This document shows positions 7,734 to 17,032 of a DNA stretch of 62,584 nucleotides, one piece after another (position 1 is the first letter of the stretch; each line of letters opens with the position of its first letter). The notes under the pieces were generated by a model. The model searched no databases, had not been told where the DNA came from, and saw only the letters and a program-made list of their open reading frames with translations. Position numbers and translations under genes: made by a program. Source of the stretch: Acidobacteriota bacterium (lineage in GTDB: Bacteria; Acidobacteriota; Thermoanaerobaculia; Gp7-AA8); assembly GCA_021781455.1 (NCBI GenBank), contig JAJXWV010000071.1, forward strand, positions 1-62,584, read 5' to 3'.

Positions 7734-8529
7734 CTTCGTTCGCATTGCTACGGCCGTGTTCGCGTGCCTTCTTCCCGTGTCGATGCTCCAGGCCGCCGGT
7801 GTGATGGCACAGCCTGCGAATCTCTATCTCAGCGCAGAACGCGGATCGATCGTGCGGAGTGAGATCACGCTTTCGCCGACGAGTGGCGACACCGCCGTCT
7901 CGATCGCCCTGGCGCCGTTCACCATCGACGAGCGCGGACAGCCGCGGAGCTGCCAGTGCCGGATGGATCGCACCCTGGCGGGGTGGGGTGACGTCAGCAC
8001 GCATGGAGTGAGTCTAACCGCGGGCCGGCGCCAGTCCGTCACTCTCGAGCTGACCGTGCCGGCATCGGCGGAAGGGAGTTACTGGGGCGTCGTCCTGGTG
8101 GAGATCGAGCAGACGGAAGTCCGGTCGCGGCTGGCCATTCCAGTGTTCCTGACCGTTCGCGGGACCGAAGCGCCGGCTGTACGCCTCAGGGAGCTGAAGG
8201 CGTTCAGGACGAAGCCGAACGAGATCGTCGTCACCGGCACGGTGTTCGACGAAGGGAACACGATCGTGCACTCGGCGCCCTTGTTCGTGGTCGAGGAAGG
8301 ATCGGCCTCCGCCCCTGTCGAGCTGGCGTCACGCGAGGACGGAGTCCTGACGATCCTGCCGGACGGACGGCGCGCGTTCCGTCTGACGATCAACGGCGAT
8401 TTCCCCGATCCGGACGTGCTGCGCGTTACCGCGTGGCTGCGCTCCGGCGGAAAGGGCGGGGGCACGGAAGCGGCCTGCCGCGTCTCGGCCTCACCTGGAT
8501 GTGACGGAGCGGGATGTCATGGCGCATGA
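7714..8529 (+). CDS. Periplasmic chaperone-like (PapD-like fold) protein
   Basis: 271 residues. A signal peptide (residues ~8-32) ends near VMAQPAN. The mature protein reads as two Ig-like domains: strands SEITLSPTSGDTAVSIALAP, then SVTLELTVPASAEGSYWGVV and RLAIPVFLTVRGTE in the first; NEIVVTGTVFDEGNTIVHS and GVLTILPDGRRAFRLTING in the second. This layout matches the fimbrial-chaperone-like proteins found beside secreted pilin-like subunits. A CQC motif (SCQCRMDR) and a Cys-rich tail (ACRVSASPGCDGAGCHG) are unusual. No usher gene is visible nearby. It overlaps both neighbours and is probably co-transcribed with them. Confidence 0.6.
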   Translation: MSSGNSDFVRIATAVFACLLPVSMLQAAGVMAQPANLYLSAERGSIVRSEITLSPTSGDTAVSIALAPFTIDERGQPRSCQCRMDRTLAGWGDVSTHGVSLTAGRRQSVTLELTVPASAEGSYWGVVLVEIEQTEVRSRLAIPVFLTVRGTEAPAVRLRELKAFRTKPNEIVVTGTVFDEGNTIVHSAPLFVVEEGSASAPVELASREDGVLTILPDGRRAFRLTINGDFPDPDVLRVTAWLRSGGKGGGTEAACRVSASPGCDGAGCHGA

Positions 8530-9733
8530 TTCGATGTTCAGGCGGTTGAACTCTCCCGAAATGACAGGTTCCAGCAACGACCAGCTCGTTCTCCTTCTCG
8601 ATGACGACGCCATGATCACCGAGGCGCTGGGCATGGGACTGGAGCGGGAGGGCCGCACGGTGATCACCTGCAACGACATCGAATCGGCAGAGTTGATCGT
8701 CGGGCGGATGCGGCCATCGCACGTGGTCACGGACATCCGCCTCTCGGGGCCGTTCGCGTTCGAGGGTCTCGACTTCGTCCGCTTCATCAAACACCACGCA
8801 CCGGAGAGCCACATCATTCTGATCAGCGGCGACGGCTCGACAGCGCTGCAGCGTGAAGCGACCAGCCGGGGAGCGGCGGCGTTCCTCCAGAAACCGTTCG
8901 AAATCGGCGCTCTCGATGCCCTGCTGGACGCGCACAGCGTGGCGACGCCAGCGGATACGCGCGCTCTCGGATCGCTGCTCCGCATTCCTCAACTCGACGA
9001 CATTCTCACCAGCGTCTTCCTGCGGCCTCATTTCCAGCCCATCGTCAGCCTCGACGGAAAGAGGACGATCGTCGGCTGCGAGTCGCTAGCCCGTTTCCGG
9101 TCGGAATCGCCGATGCGGAATCCGGGGCTGCTCTTCGAGTACGCCGAGCGCAAGCGGCGCGTCAGCGACCTCGAGATGGCCTGCATCGGCAGGACCATGG
9201 AAAGCGGTGCCGCCATCGCTGCCACGACCACCCTGTTCATCAACGTCCATCCCGGTGCACTCAACGCGGGCGCGTCGCTTCGAAGCAGGCTTCTCTCCGC
9301 GGCGAAAGCGGCAGGCGTGCCCCTCGGCCGCATCGTCGTCGAGATCACCGAACAGGGCTCGCTCACTGACAAGCCCATGGCCCTGGAAGTGATCGACGAG
9401 CTGCGGGGGCTGGGCGTCCGGTTCGCGTTCGACGACTTCGGCATGGCCTACTCGCACCTGCCGCTCATCGGCAGGATTCAGCCGGCGTACCTGAAGATCA
9501 GCCAGCACTTCGGAACGGATTTCGAGACCGACCCGACGAGGATCAAGATCATCAACAACATCCTGGCACTGGCCCGCGACTTCGATAGCACCCTGATCCT
9601 GGAGGGCATCGAACAGCCGAGCACCGCCGCGGCCGCAGTCGATCTCGGCATCCCGCTGGGCCAGGGTTATCTCTTCGGCATTCCCGCGGACGCGTCGATC
9701 TTCCTGAACCCGGTGAGTGGGAACGGCAGGTGA
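8519..9733 (+). CDS. Response regulator with REC and EAL domains
   Basis: 404 residues from the ATG at 8519 (GGAG ~9 bases upstream; a GTG at 8501 is also in frame). Residues ~18-130 form a receiver domain: the acidic triad LLLDDDAM, phospho-acceptor Asp in VVTDIRLSG and Lys in LQKPFE. Residues ~160-395 form an EAL-type c-di-GMP phosphodiesterase domain with the signature changed to ESL (GCESLARF) but other catalytic motifs kept: FINVHP, VVEITEQ, FAFDDFGMAYS, LKIS, LEGIEQP and QGYLFG. It probably degrades c-di-GMP on phosphorylation, although the altered signature could lower activity. It overlaps the chaperone-like gene by 11 bases, linking c-di-GMP to the secreted proteins. Confidence 0.85.
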   Translation: MAHDSMFRRLNSPEMTGSSNDQLVLLLDDDAMITEALGMGLEREGRTVITCNDIESAELIVGRMRPSHVVTDIRLSGPFAFEGLDFVRFIKHHAPESHIILISGDGSTALQREATSRGAAAFLQKPFEIGALDALLDAHSVATPADTRALGSLLRIPQLDDILTSVFLRPHFQPIVSLDGKRTIVGCESLARFRSESPMRNPGLLFEYAERKRRVSDLEMACIGRTMESGAAIAATTTLFINVHPGALNAGASLRSRLLSAAKAAGVPLGRIVVEITEQGSLTDKPMALEVIDELRGLGVRFAFDDFGMAYSHLPLIGRIQPAYLKISQHFGTDFETDPTRIKIINNILALARDFDSTLILEGIEQPSTAAAAVDLGIPLGQGYLFGIPADASIFLNPVSGNGR

Positions 9734-12851: not shown

Positions 12852-13505
12852 ATGCGGAGTTCCAACGAGCGCCGGCGCGTGCAGCGCGTGCGGTTGATCC
12901 AGCCGCTGCGTGGCACGACAGGAGAGCAGAAGATCTTCGTGCTGGACGTATCGCTGCTCGGCCTGAGAATCGCCCACCAGGAGCCGCTGGGGAACCTCCG
13001 CGACGAGTGTCTCGTGGTCTTCGAATGGCAGGGAGGAAGGATCGAGCTCCGCTGCCGCATCGTTCGCTCCGAGCTGCAGCGCCCGGTGAGCGGTCCAGCA
13101 CGAACCGTGTACCACTCAGGGCTGGAGATCGTGTTCGCGCCGCCGCTTTCGCGAGAGCACCTGGCCGCGCTCATTCACGACCACGTGGCACGCGCCATCG
13201 ACGAGCAGAAAGCGAACGCCCGCGGCGTTCCGGCGGCCGCCGCCCAGCACACGCAGACCGGCGCGGCGAACTGCTTCGTGCGTCACGACTACATCCGCGG
13301 ACAGTGGCAGACGATGCAGACCAACGATCCCACCCAGCCGATGAGCGGGTTCACCATCGCCTCCGACGAGACGGCAGACAACATCACCATGCTTCGCGAT
13401 GCCTTCGTAGCCGCGGATCCCTCGCTCCGGCACGTCATTCGAAAGATGGCCGACCTGAGCATCTCAAACCCCGCCGGCATCCCGGCCCGCCGCTATGCTC
13501 CGTGA
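12852..13505 (+). CDS. PilZ-domain protein (c-di-GMP receptor)
   Basis: 217 residues. The first ~110 form a PilZ domain: the Arg switch in NERRRVQRVRL and the D-x-S-x-x-G motif in LDVSLLGLRI, with strands ECLVVFEWQGGRIELRCRIVR and YHSGLEIVFAPP. Both c-di-GMP-binding motifs look intact. The C-terminal ~100 residues are not recognised. It sits between an EAL regulator and an HD-GYP-like gene, consistent with a local c-di-GMP circuit. Confidence 0.8.
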   Translation: MRSSNERRRVQRVRLIQPLRGTTGEQKIFVLDVSLLGLRIAHQEPLGNLRDECLVVFEWQGGRIELRCRIVRSELQRPVSGPARTVYHSGLEIVFAPPLSREHLAALIHDHVARAIDEQKANARGVPAAAAQHTQTGAANCFVRHDYIRGQWQTMQTNDPTQPMSGFTIASDETADNITMLRDAFVAADPSLRHVIRKMADLSISNPAGIPARRYAP

Positions 13506-13709: not shown

Positions 13710-15914
13710 ATGAGCTCATCGACAGGCAGCAGCTCGTCGGTCGCGGAGTTCGTCCGGGCCCTCGCGCTGGGATGGAAGAACCTGGCCGCCTATCCGCCGG
13801 GCCATCCGACTCTCGGTCGCTCGCTTGGAGCCATCGAGCAACGCCTGAACGAGCTGCGCGGCCCCGCTCCGGAGATCGTTTTCGGAGTCGCGGCCGATGG
13901 GCTCATGTACGCGAACGAGAAGATCGAATCGGTCTACGCGCAGAAGTTCGCCTACGCTCTGTACACGCGGGGGGTGGCACTGTTGCGGCTGGAGAAGCCC
14001 ACCGCCGAGGAGATCGAGACCTTCCTGCGCATTCTCGGCGTCGGAAGCACGGACCAGCGCGCGCCGATCTGGGAAGAGCTGACCGGCGCCGCGGTGATGA
14101 GCATCCACCTGCAGCCGGTCGACTATTCGACGGTGCAGATGACCAGCAGCCTCGACGAAACGGTGAAGAAGAAGGAGCCGGCTTCGTTGTGGGAGGAGAT
14201 CCTGCGGGCGTTGCTGGCGGGCCATGAGCTCGCGCCGGAGTCGCAAAAGCTGCTCACCGAGGGAGTGAAGTCGGTCGACGAGCTGTCGGCCCTGATTCTC
14301 CGCTACGTCGACGAGAAGGGGCCGGAACGCACGTTCGACCCCGAGGCCACGTTCGGCGTGCGCATGATGGCCCGCCTGCCCGATTCGGTACAGTCGCCCA
14401 GGGCTGTGGCCAGGCGCCTCGCCGACACGGTGTCCCTCTATCTGGCGGGATGCACGGGCCTGAAAAAGCAATTCGCAGTCCAGCAGGTCATGCAGCTCCT
14501 GAAGAGTCTTCCGGACACGATCGCCAGCGTGGTGATGCGCGCAGTCATGCGCACGCTGGCCACCGACGATGCCTCGGCCGCGCTGCTTCGCGATTTCGTC
14601 GCGTCCGTGCCGCACGATCAGGCCCTCGACGCGTTGCGCTACCTCTCCACCGTGTCGAAACTCTCCGATCACGCCCTCAATCTTCTGCAGTCGCTGGCGG
14701 TGATCGAAAAGCCGGCCGAGCTCCCGGCGGTGCCCGACAGCATCCTGGCCGACCTCGTCGATCTCTTCGGCGACGACGATCCGGACCGCTTCAACCCGCC
14801 GGACCACCAAGCTCTTCTGCAGGAAGTCACGGTGCACATCCCCAATCTGCCGCCTCGGCTGAAGGGCGAGGTCCAGACTCTCGGCGATCGCGTGGAGAGC
14901 GTCTCGGACGATGAGCTGACCAGGCAACTCTCGCGCACGATGCTGGAACTGCTGACCGGCCTCGGCTCATCGCACGAGGCAGAGCCGATCCTGCGCCGGC
15001 TGGAAGGCTACTTTCGCTCGTTCCTCAGGAGCGGCCAGTACGACGACGCGCTGGAATGCATCGAGCGTTTGCAGGAAATCGCCATCACCACCGAGGATGC
15101 CGGATTGCGCCGGGCGATGGACGACGCCTTCGCACGCCTCGCCGATGCAGAGACGACCGAGACGGTGATCGAGTCGATGATCACGGCCGGGCCGGAGATG
15201 GCGCCGACCATTCAGCGCCTGATCGAGGCCATGGGCGCCGCGGCCACGCGCAGCCTGCTGATGGCCCTGGCTGAGGAGAGCAAGCTCTCGCGCCGTCGCA
15301 AGCTCTTCGACGTCGTGGCTTCGCTCGGGCCGGTGATTGTTCCCGAAGTGACCCGCTTCCTGAGCGACTCCCGCTGGTACGTGGTCAGGAACATGATCGT
15401 GCTGCTGCGCACGGTGAACGACCGCACATCCCTTCCGGAGATCCGGCGTCTGGCGCACCATCGCGACCTGCGCGTGCGCCTGGAAGCCATCAAGACGCTG
15501 CTGACCCTGGAGCAGAACGTTCCCGAGTCTCTGCTGGCCAATGCCATCAACGATCCCGACCCGAAGATGGCGGAGACGGCCATCACGCTCGTGGGAAACT
15601 ACGGCATTCGCGAAGGTGTGGGACCGCTTCTGAGAATCGTCGCCGGCCGCGGCGTCTTCGGATTCCGCAAGCCGCTGCGCATCCGAGCTCTGAAGGCCCT
15701 CGGCGAGCTCGCCGAGCCGTCCGCCCTCACTCATCTCGACCGCTTCTTCAGGGACTCGTTCCTTCCCTGGCCGCGAAGCGAGGAACGGAGGGCCGCCTTC
15801 GAATCGCTGGCCGGCTATCCGGAGGACGTCCGCAAACCGTTCGTCGAGATCGGCCTCCGCTCGCGCGACGCCGGGATCCGCGAGATCTGCCGCCGCATGA
15901 GCTCTGCGAGTTGA
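13710..15914 (+). CDS. HEAT-repeat protein with a YPxxHP N-terminal domain
   Basis: 734 residues from the ATG at 13710, chosen over an upstream in-frame start because the preceding translation is Cys-rich and unlike protein. Residues ~10-115 (AYPPGHPTLGRSL, EIVFGVAADGLMYANEKIE, LLRLEKPTAEEIETFLRIL) match the N-terminus of the next gene product. The middle is helical. The C-terminal ~230 residues are HEAT-like repeats (VVRNMIVLLRTVNDRTSLPE, RVRLEAIKTLLTLEQ, RIRALKALGELAEPSAL). No enzyme motif is seen. Probably a scaffold in a signalling pathway. The HD-GYP gene starts 2 bases after its stop. Confidence 0.7.
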   Translation: MSSSTGSSSSVAEFVRALALGWKNLAAYPPGHPTLGRSLGAIEQRLNELRGPAPEIVFGVAADGLMYANEKIESVYAQKFAYALYTRGVALLRLEKPTAEEIETFLRILGVGSTDQRAPIWEELTGAAVMSIHLQPVDYSTVQMTSSLDETVKKKEPASLWEEILRALLAGHELAPESQKLLTEGVKSVDELSALILRYVDEKGPERTFDPEATFGVRMMARLPDSVQSPRAVARRLADTVSLYLAGCTGLKKQFAVQQVMQLLKSLPDTIASVVMRAVMRTLATDDASAALLRDFVASVPHDQALDALRYLSTVSKLSDHALNLLQSLAVIEKPAELPAVPDSILADLVDLFGDDDPDRFNPPDHQALLQEVTVHIPNLPPRLKGEVQTLGDRVESVSDDELTRQLSRTMLELLTGLGSSHEAEPILRRLEGYFRSFLRSGQYDDALECIERLQEIAITTEDAGLRRAMDDAFARLADAETTETVIESMITAGPEMAPTIQRLIEAMGAAATRSLLMALAEESKLSRRRKLFDVVASLGPVIVPEVTRFLSDSRWYVVRNMIVLLRTVNDRTSLPEIRRLAHHRDLRVRLEAIKTLLTLEQNVPESLLANAINDPDPKMAETAITLVGNYGIREGVGPLLRIVAGRGVFGFRKPLRIRALKALGELAEPSALTHLDRFFRDSFLPWPRSEERRAAFESLAGYPEDVRKPFVEIGLRSRDAGIREICRRMSSAS

Positions 15915-15916
15915 CC

Positions 15917-17032
15917 ATGGAACAGCTCATCGTCCAGATCGCTGCCGCCACGAATACGGCCACTCTGTACCCGGCGAAGCATCCGCGCGTGCTGCAGTCG
16001 ATCGATCACATCCTGTCGACTCTGGGCAGCGTGCTCCAGGAGCGCCACGACGACTCCATCACCTTTCTCGTCCTCGGCGACGAGCTCGTCGTGGATCAGG
16101 AGGTCGTCCGCAAGAGCACTCTCTCGCAGCGCCAGTTCGTCGAGCTGCTGAAGCAGCGCGGCATCGAGCGCCTGACACTCGCGGCCGGACTGGACGTCGA
16201 AGAGGCGCAGCAACTGATCAGCGCCCTGGCCACCGGCGAGACCCTCGAGTCGACGCCTCACGTCGTCCTCGGAAAAGTGCAGGTCAACCTGGATCAGGAA
16301 CACGACGACGAGGCGCCGCGCGAGCTCAAGAGCGACCTGCTCGAGCCGGTTCGAGACGCCTTCGCGAAGTTCCGCATCGACAAGAACCTGCCCCTCGGCC
16401 CCATGGAACAGCTGGTGTGGGGATTCATCGACTCCCTTTCGAAAACGACACAGTCGATCCTGCCCCTTTCGAGACTCAAAGAGCACGACGAGTACACCTT
16501 CGTACATTCGGTCAACGTATCGATGCTCGTCCTCGCGCAGGCCCGCTCCTTCGGCATCCAGGGAACCATGCTCCACGCCTTCGGCATGGCCGGCCTGCTT
16601 CATGACATCGGCAAGCTCATGGTGCCGCTCAGTGTGCTGACCAAACCGGGCAAGCTCGAGGGTCAGGAGTGGGCCCAGATGCAGAGCCACACGGTTCAGG
16701 GCGCCTGGTACCTGGCGGAGATGGAAGGCGCTCTGCCGTTGTCGATCGCCGTCGCCTACGAGCACCACCTCAGATACGACGGCCAGCCCAATTACCCGGT
16801 CCTCAAGATTTCGCGCGTGCCGAACCTCGCCAGTCGCATGACTTCGATCGGCGATGCCTACGATGCGATGTCGACGGTCAGGCCCTACCAGCAGCCGCTG
16901 ATGCGCTCCGCGGCCTTCGAGATCCTGAAGAAGCGCGCCGAGACTTTTTACGACCCGCTGCTGGTCGCGAATTTCGTGCGCATCGTCGGCCTGGGCGCCC
17001 CGAGCGATCCGACACCCTCAGAGCGGCTCTGA
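15917..17032 (+). CDS. HD-GYP-like phosphohydrolase with a YPxxHP N-terminal domain
   Basis: 371 residues from the ATG at 15917, 2 bases after the previous stop. Residues ~1-110 share the domain of the preceding gene (LYPAKHPRVLQSIDHIL, ITFLVLGDELVVDQEVV). The HD domain spans ~180-345: H in FVHSVNVSMLVLA, the HD pair in GLLHDIGKLMVP, and AYEHHLRYDGQPNYP in place of the canonical HHExxDGxGYP. The GYP Gly is Asn and the Glu is Leu, so this is a divergent member. It may cleave c-di-GMP or another phosphoester. Co-transcription with the HEAT gene is very likely. Confidence 0.8.
   Translation: MEQLIVQIAAATNTATLYPAKHPRVLQSIDHILSTLGSVLQERHDDSITFLVLGDELVVDQEVVRKSTLSQRQFVELLKQRGIERLTLAAGLDVEEAQQLISALATGETLESTPHVVLGKVQVNLDQEHDDEAPRELKSDLLEPVRDAFAKFRIDKNLPLGPMEQLVWGFIDSLSKTTQSILPLSRLKEHDEYTFVHSVNVSMLVLAQARSFGIQGTMLHAFGMAGLLHDIGKLMVPLSVLTKPGKLEGQEWAQMQSHTVQGAWYLAEMEGALPLSIAVAYEHHLRYDGQPNYPVLKISRVPNLASRMTSIGDAYDAMSTVRPYQQPLMRSAAFEILKKRAETFYDPLLVANFVRIVGLGAPSDPTPSERL

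Follow-up and report, generated by a model that had tools for sequence, protein, structure and literature searches.

A YxxxHP domain shared by adjacent HEAT-repeat and HD-GYP-type proteins of Acidobacteriota

The window analysed here, a 62,584-nucleotide (nt) stretch of an Acidobacteriota bacterium (assembly GCA_021781455.1, contig JAJXWV010000071.1, positions 1 to 62,584 of the forward strand), contains two adjacent forward-strand genes that encode the 734-residue HEAT-repeat protein P0001 (13710..15914) and the 371-residue HD-GYP-type protein P0002 (15917..17032). The N-terminal regions of the two proteins are copies of one homologous domain, here named the YxxxHP domain, and the matched pair recurs in many members of the phylum, suggesting that P0001 and P0002 act together. 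We propose a two-subunit Acidobacteriota module in which paired N-terminal domains (N-domains) would join P0002, a putative cyclic-dinucleotide phosphodiesterase, to a HEAT solenoid that would anchor or switch it; the case for this reading stands about evenly balanced.

One homologous domain at the start of both proteins

The shared domain comprises residues 11–143 of P0001 (13740..14138, forward strand; HEAT type, profile match 2e-30) and residues 1–124 of P0002 (15917..16288, forward strand; HD type, profile match 6e-30). A sequence-only reading of this DNA had proposed that the first ~110 residues of the two proteins align, and they do, with that extent set too short for a domain of ~125–135 residues. 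Direct comparison of the two N-termini by BLASTP gave 31 identities in 115 positions (27%, E 1e-5), and profiles built with 7 and 6 relatives matched each other with a probability of 94.9 (E 4.7e-8). Profile comparison had been set beforehand as the test of the proposed similarity, and the similarity proved significant: 76 HEAT-type copies against 81 HD-type copies, larger sets that were gathered using a joint profile, aligned over 135 columns with a probability of 99.8, E 2.5e-28 and a score of 156.9. Controls scored far lower, with values of at most 16.0 for 60 column-shuffled profiles, 17.3 for a reversed profile, and 15.1 and 11.9 for the HEAT and HD C-terminal profiles, respectively. Queries of one type also recover the other. 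Searching the window's own genome with each N-domain returned the query's own gene, its paralogous copy and, weakly, the other type (E 0.002 and 0.036), while profiles of either type retrieved the other down to E 3e-9.

Conservation is highest at Y, H and P in the Y(P)xxHP turn (97, 93 and 92% of the 81 HD-type copies; 96, 90 and 93% of the 76 HEAT-type copies, counted on automatic alignments, as are the other residue counts below), with glycines also among the most conserved. The proposed YPxxHP motif is present in both N-termini (AYPPGHPTLGRSLGAI and LYPAKHPRVLQSIDHI), except that P0002 has V at a position for which L had been proposed, and the proposed strand-pair motif is found as FGVAADGLMY and FLVLGDELVV. 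The motif is short, and its exact YPxxHP form occurs in just 28 of the 81 HD-type copies and 56 of the 76 HEAT-type copies, which might suggest chance similarity or convergence on a few residues; set against 135 aligned columns, a score of 156.9 versus at most 17.3 in controls and the cross-retrieval of the two types, that explanation is refuted, and we give it practically no weight.

The domain is uncharacterised, as had been proposed: no Pfam or NCBIfam model exceeded its cut-off on either N-domain, and a scan of 25 diverse members singly at E 0.1 found no family matched by more than one of them (best single-member E values, 0.0042 in Pfam and 0.0011 in NCBIfam). DUF4404 (PF14357), which reached 14.6 bits against a cut-off of 27 on residues 13–38 of P0002, was rejected as too weak and too short. 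AlphaFold2 models, each computed from three sequences, differed in quality. The HEAT-type model reached a predicted local distance difference test (pLDDT) value of 74.2 and a predicted template modelling (pTM) score of 0.67, and consists of two helices, three short strands, a helix, a strand, a helix and a less certain end; the HD-type model was poor (pLDDT 50.5), with its first six elements in the same order. Fold searches used the HEAT-type model, the HD-type one being too poor. Foldseek found nothing at E 0.001 or better in PDB and BFVD, only low-scoring mixed rows, and the best VIA score was Z 3.8, for FusB, which was too low for FusB to be accepted as a relative. A profile search of PDB sequences returned three rows (E 0.0023–0.65, 37–43 residues, one of them a designed protein), none convincing. 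The N-domain is an undescribed alpha/beta domain outside the curated families searched; the lack of a fold match is not proof of a new fold.

Beyond the shared domain, P0001 scored 44.8 bits against HEAT_2 (curated Pfam cut-off 27.7), with the best-scoring stretch at residues 549–600 (15354..15509, forward strand), and alphaRep solenoids of the PDB align to stretches between residues 398 and 698, which identifies it as a HEAT-repeat protein. Comparisons of residues 144 to ~400 with Pfam, NCBIfam and the PDB gave nothing noteworthy. P0002 scored 52.0 bits against HD_5 (cut-off 27.2) and also exceeded the HD cut-off of Pfam. Two bases separate the stop of P0001 from the ATG of P0002 at 15917, whose open frame ends with a stop at 17032.

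Distribution, pairing and history of the two genes

What had been noticed in one pair of adjacent genes is conserved far more widely. A profile of 25 members matched at least 150 of 396 sampled Acidobacteriota genomes, in at least 91 of 210 genera, and the HD-type and HEAT-type profiles alone matched at least 82 and at least 56 of the sampled genomes, respectively, all of these being lower bounds with up to 10 candidates scored per genome. The domain profile also matches 11 of 18 genomes from the window's family. The window's own genome, for which all 84 first-look candidates were scored with the 25-member profile, has four copies, namely the window pair and a second, unlinked pair on contig C64 (locus L004, 5391–8648); a row on contig C58, obtained with the HD-type query at E 0.5, was not confirmed by the larger profile. 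A contig scan with one close query returned two loci, both from Acidobacteriota, and viral scans and plasmid searches with N-domain queries found no domain copy. Searching plasmids with the whole of P0002 returned 530 records that, among the matches listed, align mainly through the HD-GYP part. One plasmid record from Deinococcus, whose annotation is tetratricopeptide repeat protein, covers 94% of the P0002 query at 27% identity.

Gene order was examined in a census of 87 loci (80 fetched for the domain, six from the window's family or own genome, and the window itself); because these were chosen for holding the domain, the pairing rates apply to domain-bearing loci only. They contain 179 domain copies, distributed over 177 open frames; HD-GYP proteins account for 81 copies, frames that match the HEAT profile for 76 and frames that match neither for 22. 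A domain-bearing gene lies upstream, on the same strand and within 4 kb, of 79 of the 81 HD-GYP proteins, with a median of 24 nt between the stop of the partner and the domain of the HD protein; of these partners, 62 match the family HEAT profile. Upstream of each of the two remaining HD proteins lies a HEAT remnant, truncated by the contig end in L152 and next to a run of unread bases in L096. Nine loci hold a HEAT-HD-HEAT-HD tandem, which, together with the second pair of the own genome, indicates that the two genes duplicated together. The window's family also has a more divergent branch of pairs with unchanged gene order (L185–L188); the two parts of the HD protein lie in different frames in L187, the locus L188 starts partway through the upstream gene, and two other loci of the family, L189 and L190, have a HEAT protein alone. 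The divergent HD-type proteins at L185 (2983–4977), L186 (3542–5101) and L188 (1051–3066) read HHR at the HHE position, keep GYP and extend ~80–90 residues past the part covered by the HD profile.

The subtypes follow their partners. From the 179 copies, 177 were kept for tree building after rows shorter than 105 residues or containing X were dropped; 172 rows were labelled by type, the HEAT label including upstream partners without a HEAT-profile match, and the five unlabelled ones were not counted. In the fasttree phylogeny of the 177 copies, one branch (support 98) parts the HD type from the HEAT type except for a single copy of each, both from L159, and parsimony on this tree requires 3 type changes among the labelled rows versus 51–65 in 20 label shuffles; a quick IQ-TREE run needs a single change. 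Because the trees separate the two types, the domain was probably duplicated once, early, before the lineages split, and each copy has since kept the same C-terminal part. This history is weakened by the IQ-TREE support of only 21 for the perfect split, rising to 81 with one row astray, and by the locus that is swapped across the well-supported fasttree branch. At that locus (L159, 2408–5706) the two N-domains lie on opposite sides in the fasttree phylogeny and not in the quick tree, which is probably a tree error and otherwise a domain swap.

Two domain copies can also occur in one chain. Single frames of ~1430 codons in genus g152 have the order GGDEF, AAA_16, domain, domain, HEAT; two-copy frames with HEAT repeats lie at L154 (582–4859), L181 (3222–7514), L180 (4862–9139) and L184 (3933–8219), as judged from Pfam for L154 and L181, from layout and the GGDEF motif for L184 and from layout alone for L180. 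The GGDEF motif is present in L181 and L184 and reads DGDEF in L154, while L173 has the order domain, domain, HEAT with no GGDEF match. These GGDEF-AAA-domain-domain-HEAT chains point to cyclic dinucleotides (cyclic diguanosine monophosphate, c-di-GMP). Both copies of L154, like those of L146, group with the HEAT type in the fasttree phylogeny, so such chains do not combine a HEAT-type with an HD-type copy; the presence of two copies in one chain is nevertheless compatible with a pairing domain.

Constant gene order, short spacing, co-duplication, partner-following subtypes and two-copy chains support, indirectly, the partner-binding or oligomerisation role within a signalling complex that the sequence-only reading had assigned to the domain. 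Alternatively, the N-domain might be a sensor of the same ligand or third protein in both subunits, which would then respond in parallel with no need for contact. The domain is N-terminal to the output part in the loci examined, HEAT-type copies stand alone in many genomes, and the conserved Y..HP turn and glycines could contribute to a site as readily as to the fold. We nevertheless consider a sensor unlikely: two co-travelling subtypes, one per gene, are what is expected of a heteromer, and a common sensor would combine more often with other outputs, whereas those at the loci examined are confined to HEAT, HD-GYP, GGDEF-AAA chains and partners without a label that occupy the HEAT position.

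Several observations weigh against the two-subunit module. The family HEAT profile is not matched by 17 of the 79 upstream partners; four of these (L090, L110, L124 and L130) have an adjoining HEAT frame, with gaps of 704–1219 nt and with the partner's domain and HEAT part in different frames, and were counted as they stand, whereas Pfam, run on four others, identified HEAT in L161, HEAT weakly in L127 and no family in L134 and L149. In 20 further loci, the pair was found in 5, an HD protein alone in 1, two HEAT proteins in 1 and a chain with two domain copies in 4, the other 9 having a HEAT protein alone; with others in the census, these HEAT-type proteins lack an HD-GYP partner, so the HEAT subunit does not need one. 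One HD-type protein (L175) has no domain-bearing neighbour, its genome carrying a pair elsewhere. The structural models are of single chains only, and the HD-type one is poor. Finally, gene pairing also fits two proteins of one pathway that never come into contact.

The HD-GYP-type catalytic domain of P0002

Residues 187–355 of P0002 (16475..16981, forward strand) match the HD-GYP phosphodiesterase PmGH (PDB 4mcw) at E 1.6e-22, which establishes homology to HD-GYP catalytic domains. The PmGH study (PMC4159591) gives the metal ligands of that enzyme, its catalytic K225 and the position of D183. All seven equivalent ligands are kept in P0002 (H197, H229, D230, H258, H283, H284 and D313), K233 corresponds to K225 (Lys in 74 of 81 HD-GYP relatives), and D191 precedes H197 by six residues as D183 precedes H189 in PmGH (Asp in 55 of 81). 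The complete ligand set H-HD-H-HH-D is found in 70 of the 81 relatives, P0002 being counted among them. The Glu four residues before the first His, which contributes to a trinuclear site, is Tyr193 in P0002 and is kept in 1 of 81; a two-metal site is expected in P0002 for that reason.

Two findings speak against a standard enzyme. The signature HHExxDGxGYP is not found in P0002, which reads HHLRYDGQPNYP, with HHL and NYP, and we therefore call the protein an HD-GYP-type variant rather than a standard member. In addition, the paralogous HD protein of the own genome (L004, contig C64) has lost the first ligand, H being replaced by N (FVNAIN), and may for that reason bind without catalysis. The HD-type subunit might accordingly be mainly a receptor, whose degenerate site binds a cyclic dinucleotide and signals to the HEAT subunit. 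Consistent with this, the third HHE position is never Glu in the 81 relatives (L 57, R 10, M 6, I 6, V 2), NYP replaces GYP in P0002, and 11 of the 81, the own-genome paralogue included, lack at least one ligand. A mainly receptor role is improbable in our view, given the seven-ligand set in most relatives, the retention of GYP in the majority (G 64, Y 68 and P 74 of 81) and the activity that alanine mutants of the PmGH GYP motif retained, according to the same study (PMC4159591). On the strength of those mutants, we expect P0002 to be an active enzyme.

A candidate phosphodiesterase module and its relation to known systems

In the proposed two-subunit module, each protein would contribute, at its start, one paralogous copy of the YxxxHP domain, and the HEAT-type and HD-type copies would pair with each other. 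The predicted two-metal HD-GYP-type site of P0002 would hydrolyse c-di-GMP or 3'3'-cyclic GMP-AMP (3'3'-cGAMP), while the HEAT solenoid of P0001 would bind a cellular partner; the solenoid might place, anchor or switch the phosphodiesterase. The HD type is nearly always accompanied by a partner gene and the HEAT type is often alone, which fits a scaffold with other possible outputs. A broader claim is that heteromeric cyclic-dinucleotide phosphodiesterases of this kind occur phylum-wide, assembled through a new pairing domain and with a one-chain diguanylate cyclase counterpart in one genus; it is conceivable and is put forward tentatively, with more doubt than conviction. If the module is real, a conserved two-gene version of HD-GYP with a solenoid partner and a shared new domain would add to the means by which the turnover of second messengers is positioned or switched, and a likely role could be given to proteins now named in family models after their HEAT or HD part alone. 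The domain itself is ready to become a profile at once.

In family f35, where the fetched HEAT-type proteins lack an HD-GYP partner, the gene immediately preceding them encodes, on the same strand, a small HD-domain phosphohydrolase at 14 of 14 loci (L140, L141, L147, L148, L153, L156, L157, L162, L168–L171, L182 and L183); this may be simple synteny. Among the flanking frames of 107 loci, the widest cluster covers 26 loci and is perhaps a shadow frame, its representative being without a Pfam match. Among nine cluster representatives scanned, the Pfam matches are to a nucleoside transporter, a PAS histidine kinase, a pyrimidine phosphorylase, an aromatic lyase and an HD protein, with one weak match to an outer-membrane barrel; we read these flanking genes as local synteny. 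Within the window, a PilZ-like protein (12852–13505; 18.3 bits, under the Pfam cut-off of 22.5) is encoded just upstream of the pair, and no relative of its gene adjoining other modules was found. A REC-EAL response regulator (8501–9733) is a further c-di-GMP protein near the pair; relatives of its gene beside other modules are weak at best.

Full-text literature matches listed for HD-GYP with HEAT repeat or with Acidobacteria/Acidobacteriota, a body of text that leaves subscription journals mostly outside, include no account of a HEAT/HD-GYP pair; in that body of text no paper mentions HD-GYP together with Acidobacteriota, and two mention it together with Acidobacteria. A published account (PMC8177086) presents HD-GYP enzymes as occurring either singly or fused to domains with regulatory, sensory or catalytic roles. 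The catalytic domain of P0002 aligns over 140–169 residues with the HD-GYP phosphodiesterases PmGH (4mcw), PA4781 (4r8z) and the 3'3'-cGAMP-specific phosphodiesterase 3 (5z7c), at E 1.6e-22 to 4.1e-15. Like PmGH, P0002 has all seven metal ligands in place, along with Asp and Lys at the catalytic positions. However, it has HHL for HHE, NYP for GYP and Tyr193 for the third-metal ligand Glu185, its new N-domain stands where PmGH has GAF, and its gene adjoins that of a HEAT protein. The dinuclear Bd1817 of Bdellovibrio (3tm8), to which the match is weak (E 0.0044), resembles P0002 in that the site predicted for the latter would hold two metals without the extra Glu, and in its departure from the signature. 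Bd1817 is described in the same account (PMC8177086) as lacking the GYP tyrosine and having Asn for the last Asp, whereas P0002 keeps both the tyrosine and Asp313. P0001, for its part, resembles HEAT-repeat scaffold proteins in its C-terminal part, which exceeds the HEAT_2 cut-off, but differs from them in its new N-domain and in the linkage of its gene to an HD-GYP-type gene.

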